A stretch of 64,000 nucleotides of DNA, taken from assembly GCF_014851805.1 (NCBI RefSeq), contig NZ_JACVAK010000005.1, forward strand, positions 124,001-188,000, given 5' to 3'. The first letter of the stretch is position 1, and every line of letters starts with the position of its first letter. Shown piece after piece: positions 26,369-53,842 of the stretch. The DNA comes from Pseudoxanthomonas sp. PXM02. GTDB taxonomy: Bacteria; Pseudomonadota; Gammaproteobacteria; Xanthomonadales; Xanthomonadaceae. Under the pieces are notes generated by a model, which searched no databases, had not been told where the DNA came from, and saw only the letters and a program-made list of their open reading frames with translations. A program made the position numbers and the translations under genes.

Positions 26369-27460
26369 TCATTGCAGGATCCGCGAAGCATCCAGCAGGA
26401 TCACCGCGCAGTCGTTGAGGCGTGCCACGCCGCGGAACAGCGGATTGGCGATGCGACCAACGCGCGCGTTGTCGGGGGATTCGATCTGCTGGTCGGTGAG
26501 GTTGGCGACGTCCTCGACCGCGGTCACGCGCAGGCCCAGGGTTTCGCCGTGTTCTTCCAGCACCACGATGCGGGTGGTGGCGTCGGTCTCGATCGCGCGG
26601 CGGCCGAGATACAAGCCCAGGTCGATCACCGGCACCACCTGGCCGCGCAGGTTCATCACGCCCAGCATGTGCGGCGCGGCGCCACGCAACGGGAGCAGCG
26701 TGGCTGGCCGCACGACTTCCTGCACCTTCAGCAGTTCCAGGGCGTAGTGCTGCTGGTCGCACCGCAGGCGCAGCCAGCGGGTTTTGCGCTCGGTCGCGCG
26801 ACGGCGTTCGCCGGTGTCGAGCGCAGCCTGCAGGTACGGCTTGGCCGGCAGCGGTACGGCGGCGTAAGGCAACGGTGCGGCCTGCACCGGCGGCTTGGCG
26901 GCCGGTACGGGAGCGGGCGTGGCGACGACACGCGAGGTCGGTGCGGCACCGCCGTGCAGGTTGTCGAGCAGGGCTTCGAATTCGTCGTCGTCGATGACGT
27001 CCGCGCCGGGGCGGACCGGCGACACGGCGAGGGCGGGCGTCGCCGGCACGGCCGGTGCAGCGGATGCGACGGCGCTCGGTGCGGCATCGCCGTGCAGGGT
27101 GTCGAGCAGCGCCTCGAACTCGTCGTCGGTAATCAGGTCGGCTTCGCTGCCGGCGCGCACGGGCGCAACCGCGAGGGCCGGTGCGGGCGCAGGTGCCGGC
27201 GCGGTGTCCGCTGTCGCCACGGCGCCTGGCACGGCATCGCCGTGCAGCGTGTCCAGCAGGGCTTCGAATTCGTCGTCGGTAATCAGGTCGGCCTCGCTGC
27301 CGGCACGCACCGGCGCGACCGCCAGCGTGGGCGCGACGACCGGGGCGGGTTCGGGAACCGGAACGACCGTGGCCGCCGGCTCGGCGGCCTGCACGGGCGG
27401 CGCGGCGATATCGCCGAGCAGGTCCTGCAGGTAGTCGTCGAGGACGGCGGGGGTGGTCAT
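26369..27460 (-). CDS. parP: ParP-like protein: triple docking repeat plus CheW-like domain
   Basis: A 363-residue protein. The C-terminal about 140 residues (from RWLRLRCDQQHYALELLKVQ) form a CheW-like domain with NLRGQVVPVIDLG. The N-terminal part is a low-complexity Ala/Pro/Val region carrying DDEFEALLDTLHG at residues 62-74 and 112-124 and DDEFEALLDNLHG at 158-170, plus an N-terminal AVLDDYLQDLLGDI. The gene follows the ParA-like gene with an ATGA overlap and precedes the chemotaxis genes, the context of ParP, which in Vibrio tethers CheA arrays to the pole through a CheW-like (AIF) domain and is itself placed by ParC. The DDEFEALLD motif is otherwise known in CheA proteins; here it is in ParP three times and in CheA once. 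A plain CheW-like adaptor is the alternative. Confidence 0.85.
   Translation of the reverse strand: MTTPAVLDDYLQDLLGDIAAPPVQAAEPAATVVPVPEPAPVVAPTLAVAPVRAGSEADLITDDEFEALLDTLHGDAVPGAVATADTAPAPAPAPALAVAPVRAGSEADLITDDEFEALLDTLHGDAAPSAVASAAPAVPATPALAVSPVRPGADVIDDDEFEALLDNLHGGAAPTSRVVATPAPVPAAKPPVQAAPLPYAAVPLPAKPYLQAALDTGERRRATERKTRWLRLRCDQQHYALELLKVQEVVRPATLLPLRGAAPHMLGVMNLRGQVVPVIDLGLYLGRRAIETDATTRIVVLEEHGETLGLRVTAVEDVANLTDQQIESPDNARVGRIANPLFRGVARLNDCAVILLDASRILQ
26933..27322 (-). repeat. Three-unit coding repeat within parP
   Basis: Three tandem units of about 48-50 codons each begin AVAPVRAGS or AVSPVRPG and contain D-D-E-F-E-A-L-L-D-x-L-H-G. Units 1 and 2 are exactly 50 residues apart and very similar in DNA. 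Unit 3 is more like the copy in cheA at 31436-31483. Confidence 0.85.
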
Positions 27461-28239
27461 GCGGCCTGCTCCGTGTCGCGGGCTTCCGTCAGCAGCAGCC
27501 AGTCGAGCGCGCGGCGATAGGCCGACAGACCGCGGCCCGGGTAGGCGGCGGCCGGGCTGGAACGCGTCAGCACGTCGACGCTGCAGATGCGGGTGTCGTT
27601 GGGAATGGCGTCGTTCCAGACGCGCTCGCCGTACTCGTCCTGCATGGCCTTGAGCGTGTCGGCACCGGTACGCGTGCGCTTGTCGTGCAGCGTCGGCAGG
27701 ATCGACACCGGCAGTTCGCGGTGGCGCGAACGCTGGATCATCTCGGCGGTGCGGCACATGCCTTTCAGGCCGTGCAGTGCCAGCGGTTCGGTCTGCGTCG
27801 GAATGATGACGTGGTCGGCCGCGGCCAGTGCGTTGACCATCAGCAGGCCGAGCGTGGGCGGGCAGTCGAACAGCACGTGGTCGTAGGCGTTGCCGCTGCG
27901 GGCCAGCGCATTGGACAGCGCCAGGCCGAGACCCGGCTGGGTGGCGCTGCGACGTTCCAGCGTGGCCAACGGCGTCTGCGCGGCCACGAAGGACAGGTTT
28001 TCGATTTCGGTGGGGCGCGCCACGCTGGACAGCGTGGGCGGCTGTTCGTCGAACAGGTCCAGCACGCCGGTGGGCTGCGGATCGGTGGCGACGCCGAAGG
28101 CGCGCGTCAGCGAGGCATGCGGATCCAGGTCGATCAGCAGCACGCGATGGCCGCGCATGGCCAAGCCGCGCCCGAGGGCGAGGGTGGTGGTGGTCTTGCC
28201 GACGCCACCTTTCTGGTTGGCGATTGCCCACACGCGCAT
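27457..28239 (-). CDS. parC: ParA-family ATPase ParC for polar chemosensory arrays
   Basis: A 260-residue MinD/ParA-like ATPase. The deviant Walker A motif KGGVGKTTTT is near the N-terminus, Walker A' LLIDLDPHAS follows, and FDCPPTLGLL forms Walker B. No DNA-binding extension or ParB partner is present, so chromosome or plasmid partition is unlikely. Its place between motD and the ParP-like gene is that of ParC in Vibrio and Pseudomonas, which recruits chemotaxis arrays to the flagellated pole. The start is ATG 28239, overlapping the motD stop by one nt (TGATG); a GTG one codon upstream is possible. It overlaps parP by four nt. Confidence 0.92.
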   Translation of the reverse strand: MRVWAIANQKGGVGKTTTTLALGRGLAMRGHRVLLIDLDPHASLTRAFGVATDPQPTGVLDLFDEQPPTLSSVARPTEIENLSFVAAQTPLATLERRSATQPGLGLALSNALARSGNAYDHVLFDCPPTLGLLMVNALAAADHVIIPTQTEPLALHGLKGMCRTAEMIQRSRHRELPVSILPTLHDKRTRTGADTLKAMQDEYGERVWNDAIPNDTRICSVDVLTRSSPAAAYPGRGLSAYRRALDWLLLTEARDTEQAA

Positions 28240-29201
28240 CACTGGACTCCTTCATGGACCTGGGGCGCCGGCGGCGCTCCGGGCATGGGCGACGCGGCGT
28301 GGGTCGGCAGCGGCGGCAGCGAGATCACTGACGGCGGTGCGACGGCCTGTTCCTGTGCCTGCAAGTTCGGTGCCGGACCGGTGGGGCTGGCCAGGATGAT
28401 CAGCAGGACGCGGCGGTTGGCGTTGCGGCCTTCCTGGGTCGTGTTGTCGGCGACCGGGCGGAACTCGCCGTAACCGATCATCGCCAGCCGCTCCGGCGGA
28501 ATCCCGTCGCGGACGAACAGGTGCACCACGCTGGCGGCACGGGCCGACGACAGTTCCCAGTTGGACGGGAACTGGGCCGTGCGGATCGGGCGGTCGTCGG
28601 TATAGCCCTCGACGCGGACCGAGTTCGGCACGCCGGCGAGCACTGCGCCCAGCTTGCCGACCGTTTCCTGCGCCTGCGGATCGAGCGCGGCCGAACCGGT
28701 GGCGAACAGGATGTCGCTGTTGATCTGCACTTCCAGCCACAGCGTGGAGCGCTTGATGGTCACCAGCTTCTCGTCGATCAGCGGCGCCAGCGCGCGCTCC
28801 AGGTCGTCGGCGATGCGCTTGAGTTCGCCCTGCGCGGCCTGCAGGCCGTTGGCGTCCAGCGACATGTTCATCTGCGAGGCCATCGCCGCCAGCAGGGTGA
28901 CGTTGGGCGACGGCGAGGGTGCGGACGGTCCTTCCTTGGCGCCGGACTTGATCGGCGAGGGCCGGTCGAAGTCCGCGCCCTGCAACTGGTGGTTGCCGAC
29001 CTGCACCGGATTGATCGTGCGCGGCGCGCCGCCGAAGGCGGCGGTGAGCGCATCCGCCACGACGCGGTACTTGCCCTCGTTGACGGTGGAGATGGCGTAC
29101 ATCACCACGAAGAAGGCGAGCAGCAGCGTCATCAGGTCGGCGTAGGGGATCGCCCAGGCCTCGTGGTTGGCGTGCTCTTCGTGCTTCTTCCTGCGTGCCA
29201 T
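28239..29201 (-). CDS. motD: Flagellar stator protein MotD (MotB homologue)
   Basis: A 320-residue stator subunit. A single TM segment near residues 15-40 contains the proton-carrying Asp in YADLMTLLLAFFVVMYA. A plug/linker region follows and then an OmpA-like peptidoglycan-binding domain (VEGYTDDRPI, NWELSSARAASVVHLFV, GYGEFRPVADN, NRRVLLII). The last about 40 residues are Pro/Ala-rich and longer than in enteric MotB. Together with MotC it forms the ion channel that powers rotation. It follows motC by 18 nt. I call it MotD rather than MotB because of the motCD-parC-parP context seen in Pseudomonas; a second motAB pair would be elsewhere. Confidence 0.93.
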   Translation of the reverse strand: MARRKKHEEHANHEAWAIPYADLMTLLLAFFVVMYAISTVNEGKYRVVADALTAAFGGAPRTINPVQVGNHQLQGADFDRPSPIKSGAKEGPSAPSPSPNVTLLAAMASQMNMSLDANGLQAAQGELKRIADDLERALAPLIDEKLVTIKRSTLWLEVQINSDILFATGSAALDPQAQETVGKLGAVLAGVPNSVRVEGYTDDRPIRTAQFPSNWELSSARAASVVHLFVRDGIPPERLAMIGYGEFRPVADNTTQEGRNANRRVLLIILASPTGPAPNLQAQEQAVAPPSVISLPPLPTHAASPMPGAPPAPQVHEGVQ

Positions 29202-30178: not shown

Positions 30179-31936
30179 TCACGCCGTCGCGCGCAGTCCA
30201 TCGACATCGAGGATCAGCGCCATGCGGCCGTCGCCGATCAGGGTGGCACCGGCGTAGCCGGGCAGGCCGCGTACCGCGCGCGGTAGCGGCTTGATGACGA
30301 CTTCCTCGCGGCCGCGCACCTGGTCGACGATCAGGCCGAAGCGCTGTTCGCCCATCTGCAGCACCACGATGGTGAGCAGGGGCGCCATCACCGGATCCAC
30401 GCGCAGCCATTGGCGCAGGTCGACCAGCGGCAGGGTATGGGTCTGGCGGTCCAGCACGGCCTGGCCATCGAACCAGCGCAGGCTTTCGGAGGGGGCGTGC
30501 AGCACTTCCATCACGCGCGCCAGCGGCAATGCGTAGACGGGATCGCCGGCCTGCACCAGCAGCGTGGGCAGGATCGCCAGCGTCAGCGGTACACGGATGA
30601 CGAAGCGGCTGCCGCGGCCCACGTCGGAATGGATGGTGATCTGGCCGCTGAGTTCGCGGATGCGCGACTGCACCACGTCCATGCCGACGCCACGGCCGGA
30701 AATGTCGGTGACCTCGGCCTTGGTGGAGAAGCCCGGCAGGAAGATCAGCTGCAGGCACTCGTCGTGGCTGAGGCGTGCGGCGGACTCGGGATCGATCAGG
30801 CCTTTTTCCAGCGCCTTGGCGCGCAGGCGCTCGGGATCGATGCCGGCACCGTCGTCGCGGATCTCGATGGTGACGAAGTCGCCTTCCTGCTGCGCCGACA
30901 GGCGCACGTGGCCGGCGCGCGGCTTGTTGCAGGCTTCGCGCAGCGACGGCACTTCGACGCCATGGTCGATCGCGTTGCGCACCAGGTGCACCAGCGGATC
31001 GGCCAGGGCTTCGACCAGGTTGCGGTCCAGCTCGGTGTCGGCGCCGACCAGTTCCAGGTCGACTTCCTTCTGCAACTGGCGGGCGACGTCGCGCGCCACC
31101 TTGGGGAAGCGCGAGAACACCTTGCCGACCGGCTGCATGCGCGTGCGCATGACGGCGGTCTGCAGGCGCGCGGTGGCGATGTCCAGGCTGCTGACGGCGC
31201 GGTCGAGTTCTTCGTCGCGGATGCGTGCGCGCAGTGTCTTCAACCGGTTGCGCGACAGCACCAGCTCGCCGACCAGGTTGACGATGGCGTCCAGCCGCTT
31301 GGTGTCCACGCGGATGGTCTGTTCGACGTCACCGCCGGCCTTGGCAGCGGGTTTGGGCGCAGCCGGTTTCGCAGGCGCGGACGCCGGAGCGGCCGGCGCC
31401 GGTGCGGGGGGCGCCACGCTGGTCGGTGCAGCGCCGCCATGCAGGTTGTCGAGCAGGGCTTCGAATTCGTCGTCGCTGATCAGGTCGCCACCGGCCGCCG
31501 CCGTCACGGGTACCGCGACCGCGGCCGCTTTCTGCGTGGGCGCGGGCGCGGGCGCACCGCCGTGCACGTCGAACTGGTCGATCAGTGACTGCGGAGCATG
31601 CGGCGGTTCTTCACTGGCGCCGATGGCGTCCAGCATCTGCTGCAGCCAGTCCAGCGACTGCTGGGCGGCGTCGAAGTGCTGAGATTCGAGCGTGGCCTGT
31701 CCTGCGCGCACCAGCCCGAGCGTTTCTTCGGCCGCGTGGCACAGGTTGACCATGGGCTGGATGCCGAGGAAGCCGGCACCGCCCTTGAGCGTATGGAAGC
31801 CGCGGAACACCGCGTTGAGCTGTTCGCTGTCGGACGGGTCGTGTTCCAGCGTGACCAGCTGTTCGCCGAGCCGGTCGAGGATCTCCTGCGCTTCGATCAG
31901 GAAGTCGGCGGCGATTTCAGGCGTGACGGCGGACAT
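30179..31936 (-). CDS. cheA: Chemotaxis histidine kinase CheA, flagellar operon
   Basis: A 585-residue kinase. HPt/P1 carries His48 (RGFHTLKGGAGF). A short linker region (about 110-215) contains DDEFEALLDNLHG at about 155-167, the same motif that is tripled in ParP. P3 (VDTKRLDAIVNLVGELVLSR), P4 (HLVRNAIDHGVE, DDGAGI, GRGVGMDVV) and a CheW-like P5 follow. It phosphorylates the flagellar CheY encoded upstream. The gene is last in the fliA-cheY-cheZ-small protein-cheA series. In Pseudomonas cheB follows cheA here; in this window cheB is absent and motC comes next after a REP cluster. The classical P2 domain of E. coli CheA is not evident. Confidence 0.96.
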   Translation of the reverse strand: MSAVTPEIAADFLIEAQEILDRLGEQLVTLEHDPSDSEQLNAVFRGFHTLKGGAGFLGIQPMVNLCHAAEETLGLVRAGQATLESQHFDAAQQSLDWLQQMLDAIGASEEPPHAPQSLIDQFDVHGGAPAPAPTQKAAAVAVPVTAAAGGDLISDDEFEALLDNLHGGAAPTSVAPPAPAPAAPASAPAKPAAPKPAAKAGGDVEQTIRVDTKRLDAIVNLVGELVLSRNRLKTLRARIRDEELDRAVSSLDIATARLQTAVMRTRMQPVGKVFSRFPKVARDVARQLQKEVDLELVGADTELDRNLVEALADPLVHLVRNAIDHGVEVPSLREACNKPRAGHVRLSAQQEGDFVTIEIRDDGAGIDPERLRAKALEKGLIDPESAARLSHDECLQLIFLPGFSTKAEVTDISGRGVGMDVVQSRIRELSGQITIHSDVGRGSRFVIRVPLTLAILPTLLVQAGDPVYALPLARVMEVLHAPSESLRWFDGQAVLDRQTHTLPLVDLRQWLRVDPVMAPLLTIVVLQMGEQRFGLIVDQVRGREEVVIKPLPRAVRGLPGYAGATLIGDGRMALILDVDGLRATA

Positions 31937-32143: not shown

Positions 32144-32761
32144 CTACAGGCCCAGGCCGGACAGCAGGTCGTCGGCGTCACCCTGCGAGAACGCGTTGCG
32201 GTCAAGACCAGCAACGGCCGGACCGGCGAGTTCTGAAGGCTTGTCGCGGTTTTTTTCCGGCGGCGGCAGGCCGAGCGCACCAAAACCCTCGTGCACGCGG
32301 CGGACGATGCCGGCCACGCGGCGGATGATCTGTCCGGTGAGGTCCTGGTAGCTCTGCGCCAGCGCCATCTCCGACAGGCCCTTGCCGATGCTGTCCACCA
32401 GCGCGGCCTGGTCGGCCGACAGCGGCGTGGCTTTCAGCTGCGTGGCGTAGCCGCGGCATTGCTCGGCCAGGTCCAGCGTCTTGTGGCTGGCCTGTTCGGT
32501 CATCTCGACCACGTGGTCCAGGCGCGCGCAGGCATCGTCGAGTTCACCGGCGTCGGTCGGCGGCAGTTCGCCCAGCGTCTGCGCCAGCTCTCGGGCCAGG
32601 CGGCCGAGGCCCTGCATCATCGGCTGCGTGCGCCAGGCGGCGATCGCATCCAGTTCGCGGCGCCAGCCGGCTTCGTCGCCCTGTTCCAGGGCGTCGAGCG
32701 CGTGTTGCAGTTTCTCCACCAGCGCCGCGCGGGCACCGGTGGCGTCGGCGACGGCGTTCAT
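32144..32761 (-). CDS. cheZ: CheY-phosphate phosphatase CheZ
   Basis: A 205-residue, mostly helical protein. The active-site helix SYQDLTGQIIRRV carries the catalytic Asp and Gln equivalent to E. coli CheZ Asp143 and Gln147. The C-terminus DADDLLSGLGL matches the CheY-binding tail peptide. It speeds dephosphorylation of CheY-P. Its ATG overlaps the cheY stop by one nt (TGATG), so the two are translationally coupled. Confidence 0.95.
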   Translation of the reverse strand: MNAVADATGARAALVEKLQHALDALEQGDEAGWRRELDAIAAWRTQPMMQGLGRLARELAQTLGELPPTDAGELDDACARLDHVVEMTEQASHKTLDLAEQCRGYATQLKATPLSADQAALVDSIGKGLSEMALAQSYQDLTGQIIRRVAGIVRRVHEGFGALGLPPPEKNRDKPSELAGPAVAGLDRNAFSQGDADDLLSGLGL

Positions 32762-33159
32762 CAGGCGGCCGCTCCCAGACGTTCGAAGATCTTGCCGAGC
32801 TTCTCTTCCAGTGTCTGTGCGGTGAACGGCTTGATGATGTAGCCATTCACGCCGTTCTGCGCCGCTTCGATGATCTGCTCGCGCTTGGCTTCGGCGGTGA
32901 CCATCAGCACCGGCAGCGTCTTGAAGCGATCGTCAGCACGGATGGCCTTCAGCAGCTCGATGCCGGTCATGCCGGGCATGTTCCAGTCGGTGACCACGAA
33001 GTCGAAACTGCCCTGGGCCAGCGCCGTCAGCGCGGTGTTGCCATCGTCGGCCTCGGCGGTGTTGGTGTAGCCCAGGTCGTTGAGCAGGTTCTTGATGATG
33101 CGGCGCATGGTGGAGAAGTCGTCCACGATCAGGATGCGCATGTTCTTGTTGGCGGTCAC
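32761..33159 (-). CDS. cheY: Flagellar response regulator CheY
   Basis: A 132-residue receiver that, when phosphorylated, binds the FliM switch. I start it at GTG 33159 because GGAG lies six nt upstream; ATG 33141 ([14 protein letters not shown]) has no ribosome-binding site but is possible and would give 126 residues. The acidic pocket (VDDFSTM), phospho-Asp in [12 protein letters not shown], Thr in MVTAEAK and Lys in IIKPF are all present, and the sequence is close to enteric CheY. It is coupled to cheZ by a one-nt overlap. A sigma-28-like promoter overlaps the end of fliA upstream. Confidence 0.94.
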
Positions 33160-34886: not shown

Positions 34887-36570
34887 GGGTGGCCTCGGTC
34901 GAGCAGGGTTCGTCGGCTTCGCGGCGCAGCTGGTCCAGCCGCAGCACGAGGTGGGCGCTGTTGGCGCGGTGGAGGTCGTCGGGGACGCGCTGGCCGTCGG
35001 TCACCCAGGTCATCGGCAACTGGTGGTCGACGACCACGCTCAGCGCGCTGCCCAGGCGTCCGGTTTCGTCCAGCTTGGTCAGCACCACGCCTTGCGGCTG
35101 CACGGTGCTGAAGCGGCGGACCACTTCGTCCAGGTCGGAGAAGTGCGAATTGGCCGGCAGGCACAGCAGGGTCTTCACCTGGCCCGACGCACGCAGCCAG
35201 TTGAGCTGGCCGACCAGGTTGCGGTCGCGCTGGCCCAGGCCAGCGGTGTCGATCAGCACCAGTTTGTAGTCGCGGAGGCGCTCAAGCACCAGCGCCAGGG
35301 TCTGCACGCTGTCGGCTTCGTGTACGGCGATGCCGAGCTGGCGGCCGTAGCCGTGCAGCTGCTCGCGGCCGCCGACACGCACGGTGTCGGTGGTGACCAG
35401 CGCCACGTCGCGGGCGTTGTGGCGCTGCGCGAAGCAGGCGGCCAGCTTGGCGATGGTGGTGGTCTTGCCGGCGCCGGTGGGACCGACCAGGGCGATGACG
35501 CCGCCGGTGTCGAGCAGGTCGGTGTCGAGCACCGGCAGCTTCTTCGACAGCAGGCCCAGCATCAGGCCGCGGCCGCGGTGCAGTTCGGTATCGGCAGGAA
35601 TCTGCAGGGCGATGTCGCGGGTGATGCCGGCATCGAAGCCGTAGTCTTCCATCAGCTCCATCGCCTGCATGCGCACCGGCGAACCGCGCAGGCGTTCGTC
35701 GGTGAGGCGGTGCATCTCGCGCTCGATCATCTCGCGCATGGCGGACAGTTCGCCGCGCATCTGCACCAGCTGTTCGTCGCTCTCGCGCGCGTCCGCGGCG
35801 TTGTCGGTGACGACCGTCAGCGTCGGCACGGTGACGGCGGCGGGCGCCGGGACCGGTGCGGCCGCGGTCACGCGGGTGGCGTGCAGGGCGACGACCGGGG
35901 CCGGTTCGGGTTCCGGCAGCGACAGCGGCGGGGCAATCGAAGGCAGCAGCGCATCCAGGTCGAGCGTGTCGTCGATCTCGGCACGGTGCGAGGCCGGGCG
36001 GCGCGGGATCGCGGCCGGCTCGATCCTGGCGACCGGTTCGTTGGCCGGTGCGGGCGGCAGGCAGGCCGCCAGCTTGGCGGCGAAGGATTCGGGTTCGATC
36101 AGTTGCGGCGCGATGTCACGGAGGACCGGTGCCGGAATCTCGTCATGGATCGGCGCGGGCGTGGCGGCGACCGGCGCACGCGACGGCGCGATCGGCGCAG
36201 GCGGTGCGATCGGGGCCGGCGCGACGGGAGCGGGCTTCACGGCGTCGGCACGCGGCGCGGCCGGCGCTGCCGGCTGGCGGCGGGCGAAGTAGCTGGCGGC
36301 GGCTTCGGCCGGCGACAGGGCCGGCGCGCTGGCGGTCGGTGCCTGCGGCGCCGGATCGAGCAGCGGATGCAGCGGGGCGCTCGGCGCGGCGGGGCGCATG
36401 GCGTCCAGCGTGCGCTGCACGAGGGCTTCGTCGTAATTGCTGGCGGCGACGATCTCGACACCGTCCTCGGTGACCCGGTTGGACAGGATCACCGCATCCG
36501 GGCCGTGTTCCTGCCGGACCATCGCGAAGGCGGTGCGCATGTCGGGGGCGACGAAGCGTTTGATTTTCAT
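34876..36570 (-). CDS. flhF: Flagellar placement GTPase FlhF
   Basis: A 564-residue SRP-type GTPase. The N-terminal B domain begins MKIKRFVAPDMRTAFAMVRQ, followed by a long Ala/Pro-rich linker (about 75-250), the N domain (ELMEDYGFDAGITRDIALQI) and the G domain with P-loop GPTGAGKTTTIAKLA, DTAGLGQRD and TKLDETG. It recruits FliF to the pole and sets where the flagellum is built. The linker accounts for its length, greater than in Bacillus. It lies 48 nt after flhA. Confidence 0.96.
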   Translation of the reverse strand: MKIKRFVAPDMRTAFAMVRQEHGPDAVILSNRVTEDGVEIVAASNYDEALVQRTLDAMRPAAPSAPLHPLLDPAPQAPTASAPALSPAEAAASYFARRQPAAPAAPRADAVKPAPVAPAPIAPPAPIAPSRAPVAATPAPIHDEIPAPVLRDIAPQLIEPESFAAKLAACLPPAPANEPVARIEPAAIPRRPASHRAEIDDTLDLDALLPSIAPPLSLPEPEPAPVVALHATRVTAAAPVPAPAAVTVPTLTVVTDNAADARESDEQLVQMRGELSAMREMIEREMHRLTDERLRGSPVRMQAMELMEDYGFDAGITRDIALQIPADTELHRGRGLMLGLLSKKLPVLDTDLLDTGGVIALVGPTGAGKTTTIAKLAACFAQRHNARDVALVTTDTVRVGGREQLHGYGRQLGIAVHEADSVQTLALVLERLRDYKLVLIDTAGLGQRDRNLVGQLNWLRASGQVKTLLCLPANSHFSDLDEVVRRFSTVQPQGVVLTKLDETGRLGSALSVVVDHQLPMTWVTDGQRVPDDLHRANSAHLVLRLDQLRREADEPCSTEATHVA

Positions 36571-52805: not shown

Positions 52806-53842
52806 GGCGTGGCGTCCTGGAAGGCGACGGGTGCAAGGGCGTGGCGGGCGGGAGCGGACGGGTGGCGGCTGCCGGGCGGGTGATGGGCGGTGATCTTCAC
52901 GGCGTTCCGGCCGTTGGAGATGCCGAACTCGCCGCTGAACACCGGCACCTGTTCGACACAGACCGGCACCGACTTGGGCAGGTCGATCGGCAGGATGTCG
53001 CCGACCTTGAGGCGGGTCAGTTCGCGCAGGTTGATGCGCTTCTCGGCCAGTACGCTGGAAACGGTGACTTCGGCGGTGCGCAGCTGCTCGTGCATGGTGA
53101 CGCGGAAGCTGTCGTCGTCATGCACGCGGTCGGACTGGATGCCGGCGTCGAGCAGTTCGCGGATCGGCTCCAGCATCGAATAGGGCAGGGTGACGTGCAG
53201 GTCGCCGCCACCGCCGTCCAGCTCCACGTGGAAGCGGCTGACGACCACGTACTCGCGCGGGCTGACGATGTTGGCGAAATGCGGATTCACTTCGCTGGTG
53301 ATGTATTCGAAGTCCACCGGCATCACCGGCGCCCAGGCGTCGACCAGGTCGGCGAAGGTCTGCTTCAGCAGCAACTGGATCACGCGCATCTCGGTAGCGG
53401 TGAACTCGCGGCCTTCGATCTTGGCCGGGTAGCGGCCGTCGCCACCGAAGAAGTTGTCCACCATGGTGAACACCAGCTTCGGTTCGAACACGATCAGGCC
53501 CACGCCGCGCAGCGGCTTGAACTTGACCAGGTTGAGGTTGGTGGGCACGTACAGCGAATGCAGGTAGTCGCTGAACTTGATGGTCTCGATGCCGCGCACC
53601 GACAGTTCGGCCGAGCGGCGCAGCAGGTTGAACAGGCCGATGCGCCACGTGCGCACGAAGCGCTCGTTGATCATCTCCAGCGTCGGCAGCCGTCCGCGCA
53701 CGATGCGGTCCTGGCTGGCGAAATCGTAGGTCCGCGCGACGGTCGGGTCGTGCGGCGGCTCCTCGGTCTCGATCGCGCCGGAATCGACGCCGTTGAGCAG
53801 GGCGTCGATCTCGTCTTGCGACAGCAGGTCACTGGTCATCAT
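52802..53842 (-). CDS. fliM: Flagellar motor switch protein FliM
   Basis: A 346-residue C-ring protein. The N-terminal CheY-P-binding motif reads SDLLSQDEIDALLNGV. The middle domain binds FliG (GGDGRYPAKIEGREFTATEM) and the C-terminal SpoA domain is FliN-like (LTRLKVGDILPIDLPKSVPV). Two adjacent ATG codons (53842, 53839) are possible starts. The last about 25 residues are Pro/His-rich and longer than in E. coli. Confidence 0.97.
   Translation of the reverse strand: MMTSDLLSQDEIDALLNGVDSGAIETEEPPHDPTVARTYDFASQDRIVRGRLPTLEMINERFVRTWRIGLFNLLRRSAELSVRGIETIKFSDYLHSLYVPTNLNLVKFKPLRGVGLIVFEPKLVFTMVDNFFGGDGRYPAKIEGREFTATEMRVIQLLLKQTFADLVDAWAPVMPVDFEYITSEVNPHFANIVSPREYVVVSRFHVELDGGGGDLHVTLPYSMLEPIRELLDAGIQSDRVHDDDSFRVTMHEQLRTAEVTVSSVLAEKRINLRELTRLKVGDILPIDLPKSVPVCVEQVPVFSGEFGISNGRNAVKITAHHPPGSRHPSAPARHALAPVAFQDATP

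Follow-up and report, generated by a model that had tools for sequence, protein, structure and literature searches.

Peptides of the FliM/CheZ type bind the α4-β5-α5 face of CheY, and bind better when it is phosphorylated. FliM has been placed on this face (PMC3774744; a title in its reference list has CheY binding CheZ, CheA and FliM through overlapping surfaces). In PDB 2FMF, the CheZ peptide of E. coli, QDQVDDLLDSLGF, is bound to CheY as a helix (PMC5760072). Within CheA, the P2 domain is described as a dock for CheY and CheB alike (PMC11978298), and the affinity for CheY is given as ~900 μM for isolated P1 versus 0.5 μM for P2 in CheA, so that a CheY dock is worth having (PMC5705603). According to a 2023 survey, P2 is absent from nearly 52% of CheAs; the survey describes P2 HMMs as insensitive and concludes that the dispensability of P2 may be no surprise, and its main text contains neither the word FliM nor the word motif (PMC10782961). 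The CheA of P. putida has been described as a five-domain protein with a CheY-binding P2 part (PMC11978298), which could be the motif-bearing linker reported here. At the P. aeruginosa pole, CheY-EYFP overlaps CheA-CFP (PMC12410967), so the array of this species, whose CheA lies outside the CheAs read here, would need some CheY site. In Vibrio, the AIF domain of ParP binds a region of CheA called LID through W305 (PMC5706961); this region is situated between P2 and P3, and its reported occurrence is limited to species that have ParC/ParP (PMC7534058, PMC5706961).

The window, by which we mean the whole 64,000-nucleotide stretch of Pseudoxanthomonas DNA analysed, carries on its minus strand cheY (32761..33150; its product is the proposed ligand of the motif), cheZ (32144..32761), cheA (30179..31936), two motor genes identified by eye, parC (27457..28242) and parP (26369..27460), with a second CheA beyond. 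CheA is of the flagellar F6 type with the order P1-linker-P3-P4-P5; no P2 was found in it by Pfam, and the low-confidence AlphaFold2 model contains no folded domain in the P1-P3 linker. The class names F6 and F7 come from PMC7184735 and general knowledge, and classes were assigned by similarity and position, with no class model. The C-terminus of CheZ, FSQGDADDLLSGLGL (core 32162-32179), is the counterpart of the CheY-binding peptide of E. coli CheZ, and the N-terminus of FliM, MTSDLLSQDEIDALLNGV (53780..53839, minus strand; core 53795-53812), served as the other reference CheY-binding peptide. ParC is a ParA-like ATPase (PF13614, E 3.8e-44) that adjoins ParP, and ParP lies 2.7 kb from CheA. 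The 363-residue ParP consists of an N-terminal helix LDDYLQDLL, a disordered Ala/Pro-rich linker and a C-terminal CheW-like (AIF) domain (PF01584, E 1.1e-31), so that the parC neighbour, the putative N-terminal ParC-interaction segment, the long Pro-rich linker and the C-terminal CheW-like domain that identify a ParP are all present. ParC together with the ParP C-terminus groups with P. japonensis and with Pseudoxanthomonas sp. PXM01, to which it is 97% identical over 411 columns. The window ParP also shares 97% identity with the best segment of a ParP fragment from P. mexicana.

The sequence DDEFEALLDxLHG occurs three times in the disordered linker of ParP and once in CheA. The ParP cores DDEFEALLD lie on the minus strand at 27251..27277 (residues 62-70; wider sequence LITDDEFEALLDTLHG), 27101..27127 (residues 112-120; wider sequence again LITDDEFEALLDTLHG) and 26963..26989 (residues 158-166; wider sequence VIDDDEFEALLDNLHG), and the single CheA core lies at 31448..31474 on the same strand (residues 155-163, P1-P3 linker), in a region that reads GDLISDDEFEALLDNLHGG. 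An earlier note on this DNA had described a motif tripled in a disordered part of ParP at spacings of 50 and about 46 residues, and both points hold: the cores start at residues 62, 112 and 158, 50 and 46 residues apart, and the region is Ala/Pro-rich with an AlphaFold2 pLDDT of mostly 30-40 per ten-residue block. The models place isolated helices exactly at residues 62-72, 112-123 and 158-168 of ParP and at residues 155-165 of CheA, on the motif and with no fold around it; both models are poor (mean pLDDT 43 for ParP and 55 for CheA, from alignments of 6 and 16 sequences, respectively). A SHOCT domain in ParP (residues 59-71), which Pfam matches at 4e-5, below its cut-off, was rejected as a look-alike of a short acidic helix.

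Among frames of the window open for at least 90 codons, the pattern [DE]-[FILVMAY]-[DE]-[ADES]-L-L matches seven sites, namely the three in ParP, those in CheA, the FliM N-terminus and the CheZ C-terminus, and an unrelated one at 35944; the recurrence of the motif in ParP and CheA exceeds chance. As DNA, parP aligns with itself at 79.8% identity over 252 columns, and the CheA cassette aligns with ParP copy 3 at 84.9% identity over 93 columns (E 1.8e-21), silent positions included, which suggests copying between cheA and parP.

To place the motif more widely, 100 regions around CheA, each no longer than 20 kb, were taken from 94 genomes within a phylum sample of 397, and 106 CheA ORFs with a length of 450 residues or more were read, the window's two among them; the F6 CheAs of loci L003 and L107, cut by a contig end, were left out of the counts. 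The earlier note had described the motif as known from CheA linkers of Pseudomonas and Vibrio. It is indeed a CheA-linker motif, and is repeated there too: 40 of the 106 ORFs carry one to four tandem copies (one in 2, two in 5, three in 24 and four in 9), at least 120 copies in total, and these counts are lower bounds, as the pattern misses EFEAILD (L016) and EFEKVLD (L236 and L237, at least two copies in each CheA). The variant of Vibrio type is EFEKLLD, and the CheAs of L023, L028 and L032 carry the motif on reading of their linkers. The consensus is I/M-T/S-D-D-E-F-E-A/S/K-L-L-D-x-L-H-G; over 120 copies, the Phe and the first Leu are invariant, the second and the last Leu are each kept in 118, and the Glu before the Phe in 117, and the motif stays constant while the surrounding linker varies. 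The motif is real and conserved, and very probably a docking motif. In CheA it commonly forms a tandem array, and it is the ParP array that is unusual; since the motif is so widespread in CheA, copying would have run from cheA to parP. Six short F6-type CheAs (L036, L041, L042, L044-L046) show by eye at most one degenerate [DNE]WxxL[YHF] version, which was not picked by the FliM/CheZ profile described below.

P2 was searched for in 80 of the 94 genomes, 14 from outside the window's class being left out. The P2 family PF09078 was found in 12 of the 80 and PF07194 in none, and no P2 was detected in any of the 39 searched genomes with a motif CheA. Motif and detectable P2 are thus mutually exclusive in the sample. 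The enteric-type P2 of L080 has homologues in the P2 chains of the structures 1a0o, 1eay and 2lp4.

We then compared the linkers with a 13-position profile made from 31 FliM N-termini (of 40 fetched) and 54 CheZ C-termini, comprising 11 and 34 distinct 13-mers, respectively, with no CheA or ParP included. The best match in the linker was the motif itself in all 40 motif CheAs (scores 10.1-18.4, median 12.8; p 0.005-0.025 against 200 shuffled linkers), and the window ParP scored 11.8 (p 0.02). Column-permuted profiles reached the real median in 3 of 1000 cases (1 of 1000 for FliM alone and 16 of 1000 for CheZ alone), the CheZ-only profile being weaker than the FliM-only one. The median score was 6.8 for P2 CheAs and 0.7 for the other 54 CheAs, which have neither motif nor P2; only two of these 54 (L076 and the second CheA of L002) reached 10, as did one P2 CheA off its P2 helix (L097). 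The specificity of the profile is not high, since a score of at least 10 was also reached by 52 of 1677 other ORFs, not all of which are real genes. When the scan was extended over the end of P1, the motif was no longer the best match in L227 and L230, and L235-L237, L239 and L241 scored below 10. In 9 of the 12 P2 CheAs, the best match was the P2 helix DDIxAV[LMC]CF, which we take to hold the E. coli CheY-contact residues D207 and F214; four of these nine matches scored at least 10 (p 0.005-0.01) and five scored 2.0-7.3 (shuffle p 0.05-0.41). The N-terminal LxxYLDALL of ParP was also considered as a CheY dock and set aside for its weak profile score, up to 7.4.

On these sequence comparisons, DDEFEALLDxLHG is probably a CheY-docking helix of the FliM/CheZ type, which would replace P2 in F6 CheAs and which occurs in ParP as well. 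Other partners also come into question, as the motif may dock the receiver of CheB, CheV, CheZ or a VemR-type regulator, instead of or besides CheY: P2 is itself described as a dock for CheB as well as CheY, and any CheY-like face could in principle read FliM-like helices. However, the profile that finds the motif was built from known CheY-binding peptides, and we hold this alternative to be improbable.

The relation to polar localisation was examined through the occurrence of ParC and ParP. If the motif were the CheA LID bound by the AIF domain of ParP, the copies in ParP would be bound by the AIF domain of the same or of other ParPs, which would cluster arrays at the pole. The reported place of LID and its reported restriction to species with ParC/ParP agree with this, as does the distribution of ParC, which shares the locus with 37 of the 40 motif-bearing CheAs and, for L004 (genome G031), lies elsewhere in the genome. 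The wider survey of the window's order argues against it. There, an F6-like CheA was found in 34 of 121 genomes (E ≤ 1e-70; all 34 best matches below 1e-114), and ParC (E ≤ 1e-40) in 25 of these 34, whose CheA was read in part of them. The nine without ParC all belong to a sister family, f2, which is probably Rhodanobacteraceae, and all nine (including G182 and G386) carry two to three motif copies in CheA. With a ParP of the same family as query (E ≤ 1e-3), a search that could miss a very divergent ParP, ParP was detected in none of the nine and in all four ParC-bearing members of the family; the motif in CheA is independent of detected ParC/ParP. Weak ParC-like matches in G386 and G182 were taken as chromosomal ParA, as they lie beside a gene identified by eye as rsmG. 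Conversely, no motif was found in the CheA of four Lysobacteraceae with ParC in the locus, namely two Xanthomonas (L123 and L132) and Stenotrophomonas ginsengisoli (L155), all three with ParP, and the Xanthomonas-like L242, for which only ParC was counted, its ParP frame being broken by unread bases; docking would be dispensable or otherwise done in these four. Finally, W305 was recognised in two Vibrio-like ParPs as the Trp of RPWLAG, the sole Trp with a Leu (residue L209, in AVPL) 96 residues before it, and no Trp stands at the aligned position in any of 13 aligned Lysobacteraceae ParPs. These three observations weaken the polar-localisation reading of the motif, and we regard a LID role as unlikely. 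Of the proposal in the earlier note that ParP binds in a multivalent manner something that normally recognises CheA, the binding of a partner of CheA is plausible for the motif copies, but the identification of this partner with the polar-localisation machinery was not supported.

The motif in ParP is confined to a narrow set of relatives. Among 34 other gammaproteobacterial loci, none of the ORFs in the place of ParP contains the motif, by pattern or by profile; because phmmer (W-domain query, E 1e-4) missed most ParPs outside Lysobacteraceae, the ORF adjoining ParC was taken as ParP in these loci, and it is possible that a few of these ORFs are not genuine ParPs, those of L019, L037 and L040 having a divergent look. 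Within Lysobacteraceae, the sample was the best 80 of 123 named loci, of which ten (L105, L108, L112, L121, L128, L131, L133, L152, L155 and L178) had no scorable ParP. Of the 70 ParPs scored among the best 80 of 123 loci, ten carry one to three copies and 60 none, and the ten come from nine Pseudoxanthomonas and one Lysobacteraceae MAG. The absence of the repeats from close relatives, one half of what the earlier note had named as speaking against its reading, was thus found in 60 of 70 scored relatives with ParC/ParP (best 80 of 123).

On the trees, all seven rows of the window's own clade, the window included, have two to three ParP copies, and the other motif ParPs are those of the pair L107/L109 (one copy), P. 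composti L110 (three) and the MAG L117 (three, placement unsure). In the tree without L117, the ParP-motif label needs three changes, two of which are forced by starred branches; as the deep forks are unresolved, gains and losses cannot be separated. CheA has a single copy in all eight cases, again including the window, in which ParP has two to three copies and CheA is readable, and L109 has one copy in ParP and two in CheA. In the rows without ParP copies (best 80 of 123), CheA has two copies in 29, one in 7 and none in 2, CheA not having been read in 23 such rows. Since the rows are related, this relation of copy numbers is a pattern and not a test.

The ParP copies could be functionless and have arisen neutrally when GC-rich Ala/Pro linkers recombined with each other. 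Linker repeats turn over fast, the ParP linkers of Xanthomonas and Stenotrophomonas having quite different repeats, and DNA identity between the cheA and parP repeats reaches 85%, both of which fit such an origin. Yet, over ten related loci, the 30 copies in CheA and ParP differ mostly at synonymous positions (pS 0.45, pN 0.012, a count biased by the choice of copies by motif), and the copies are present in ParP in all seven rows of the window's own clade. We consider a neutral origin quite improbable.

Under the preferred CheY-docking reading, each copy of the motif would become helical on CheY, at the face to which FliM and CheZ also bind. In F6 CheAs that lack P2, the motif, which usually stands as tandem copies in the disordered linker between P1 and P3, would do the job of P2; the CheA copies would hold CheY next to phosphorylated P1, with a predicted gain in phosphotransfer, and several weak sites in a row would increase the local amount of CheY, with no need for high affinity. 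In the Pseudoxanthomonas of the window, the simplest account is that the ParP cassette was copied from cheA and multiplied to three, with CheA keeping one. ParP would be anchored in the same array baseplate via its CheW-like domain, and, because it shares the baseplate, its copies may raise local CheY at the array and present CheY to CheA in trans. A broader version, to which we give somewhat less than an even chance, is that P2-less flagellar CheAs have swapped P2 for FliM/CheZ-like helices, mostly in tandem, that some lineages have moved part of the docking array into ParP, making this scaffold of the polar array a source of CheY for the kinase in trans, and that FGFF[DE] in F7-type CheAs and PEQIAASLLAEMD in Xanthomonas ParPs may be further docking arrays.

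Several other repeats were observed in the linkers. CheAs of F7 type or related to it have one to five linker copies of [FY]G[FLY][FL][DE], mostly FGFF[DE], in 10 of the 106 CheA ORFs (including L061, L062, L074, L076, L084, L087, L093, L094 and L097), and the narrower FGFF[DE] matches two other ORFs; the FGFF[DE]-type repeat may be another docking repeat. Long CheAs outside the window's class (L047, L051, L058 and others) have a single VSLDELERxFRET-like segment between P1 and P3, and this alpha-type segment did not match the FliM/CheZ profile. By eye, the Xanthomonas ParP linkers (L114, L119, L123 and L132) have ~4-6 tandem repeats of another kind, for example PEQIAASLLAEMDSDPAFG (L123) and PEQIAAAVLAEADSDPALAG (L119), and Stenotrophomonas-type ParPs have EPTWDDLPDEVIYET-like repeats, three in L001 (5621-6700) and one in L002 (13420-14310). 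The Pseudomonas-type ParP linkers (L005, L007-L010 and L014) each contain one DEF[EQ]AAV segment, which is distantly motif-like and was not picked by the profile.

The CheY-dock reading yields a testable prediction from sequence alone. Should the motif prove to be a minimal CheY dock, P2-less F6 kinases would have a dock after all, with a tunable copy number. This would help explain the gathering of CheY at the polar arrays of Pseudomonas-type bacteria, and perhaps the differences reported at P2-facing residues between the CheYs serving F6 and F7 CheAs (PMC7184735). It would also set a docking role of the CheA linker apart from the ParP-binding role of LID, and the motif in ParP would be a small natural experiment on where a docking site has to be.

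Neither by sequence nor by topic did we find a report of such a CheA/ParP motif in the openly accessible literature. As a CheY-binding helix, the motif would be ordinary in kind, and apparently new in its place, in tandem in CheA instead of P2 and in ParP. Like the CheY-binding peptides of FliM and CheZ, it has the form hydrophobic-[DE]-x-L-L-x-x-[LV] with an acidic N-side, that of a predicted acidic amphipathic helix, as seen within the window in LLSQDEIDALL of FliM versus LISDDEFEALL of CheA; unlike those peptides, it is internal and mostly tandem, lies in the disordered linker of CheA or ParP, and has an invariant Phe and a trailing HG. Like the P2 of CheA (PF09078, PF07194), whose helix is likewise the best profile match in 9 of 12 cases, it lies between P1 and P3, but P2 is a folded domain, whereas for the motif, often repeated, the low-confidence model shows a helix alone, with no fold around it. 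Like the Vibrio LID, the motif sits in the same linker of the same class of CheA, and ParP is the partner gene here; unlike LID, it is present without detected ParC/ParP and can be absent where ParC is present, and W305 of ParP is not conserved.
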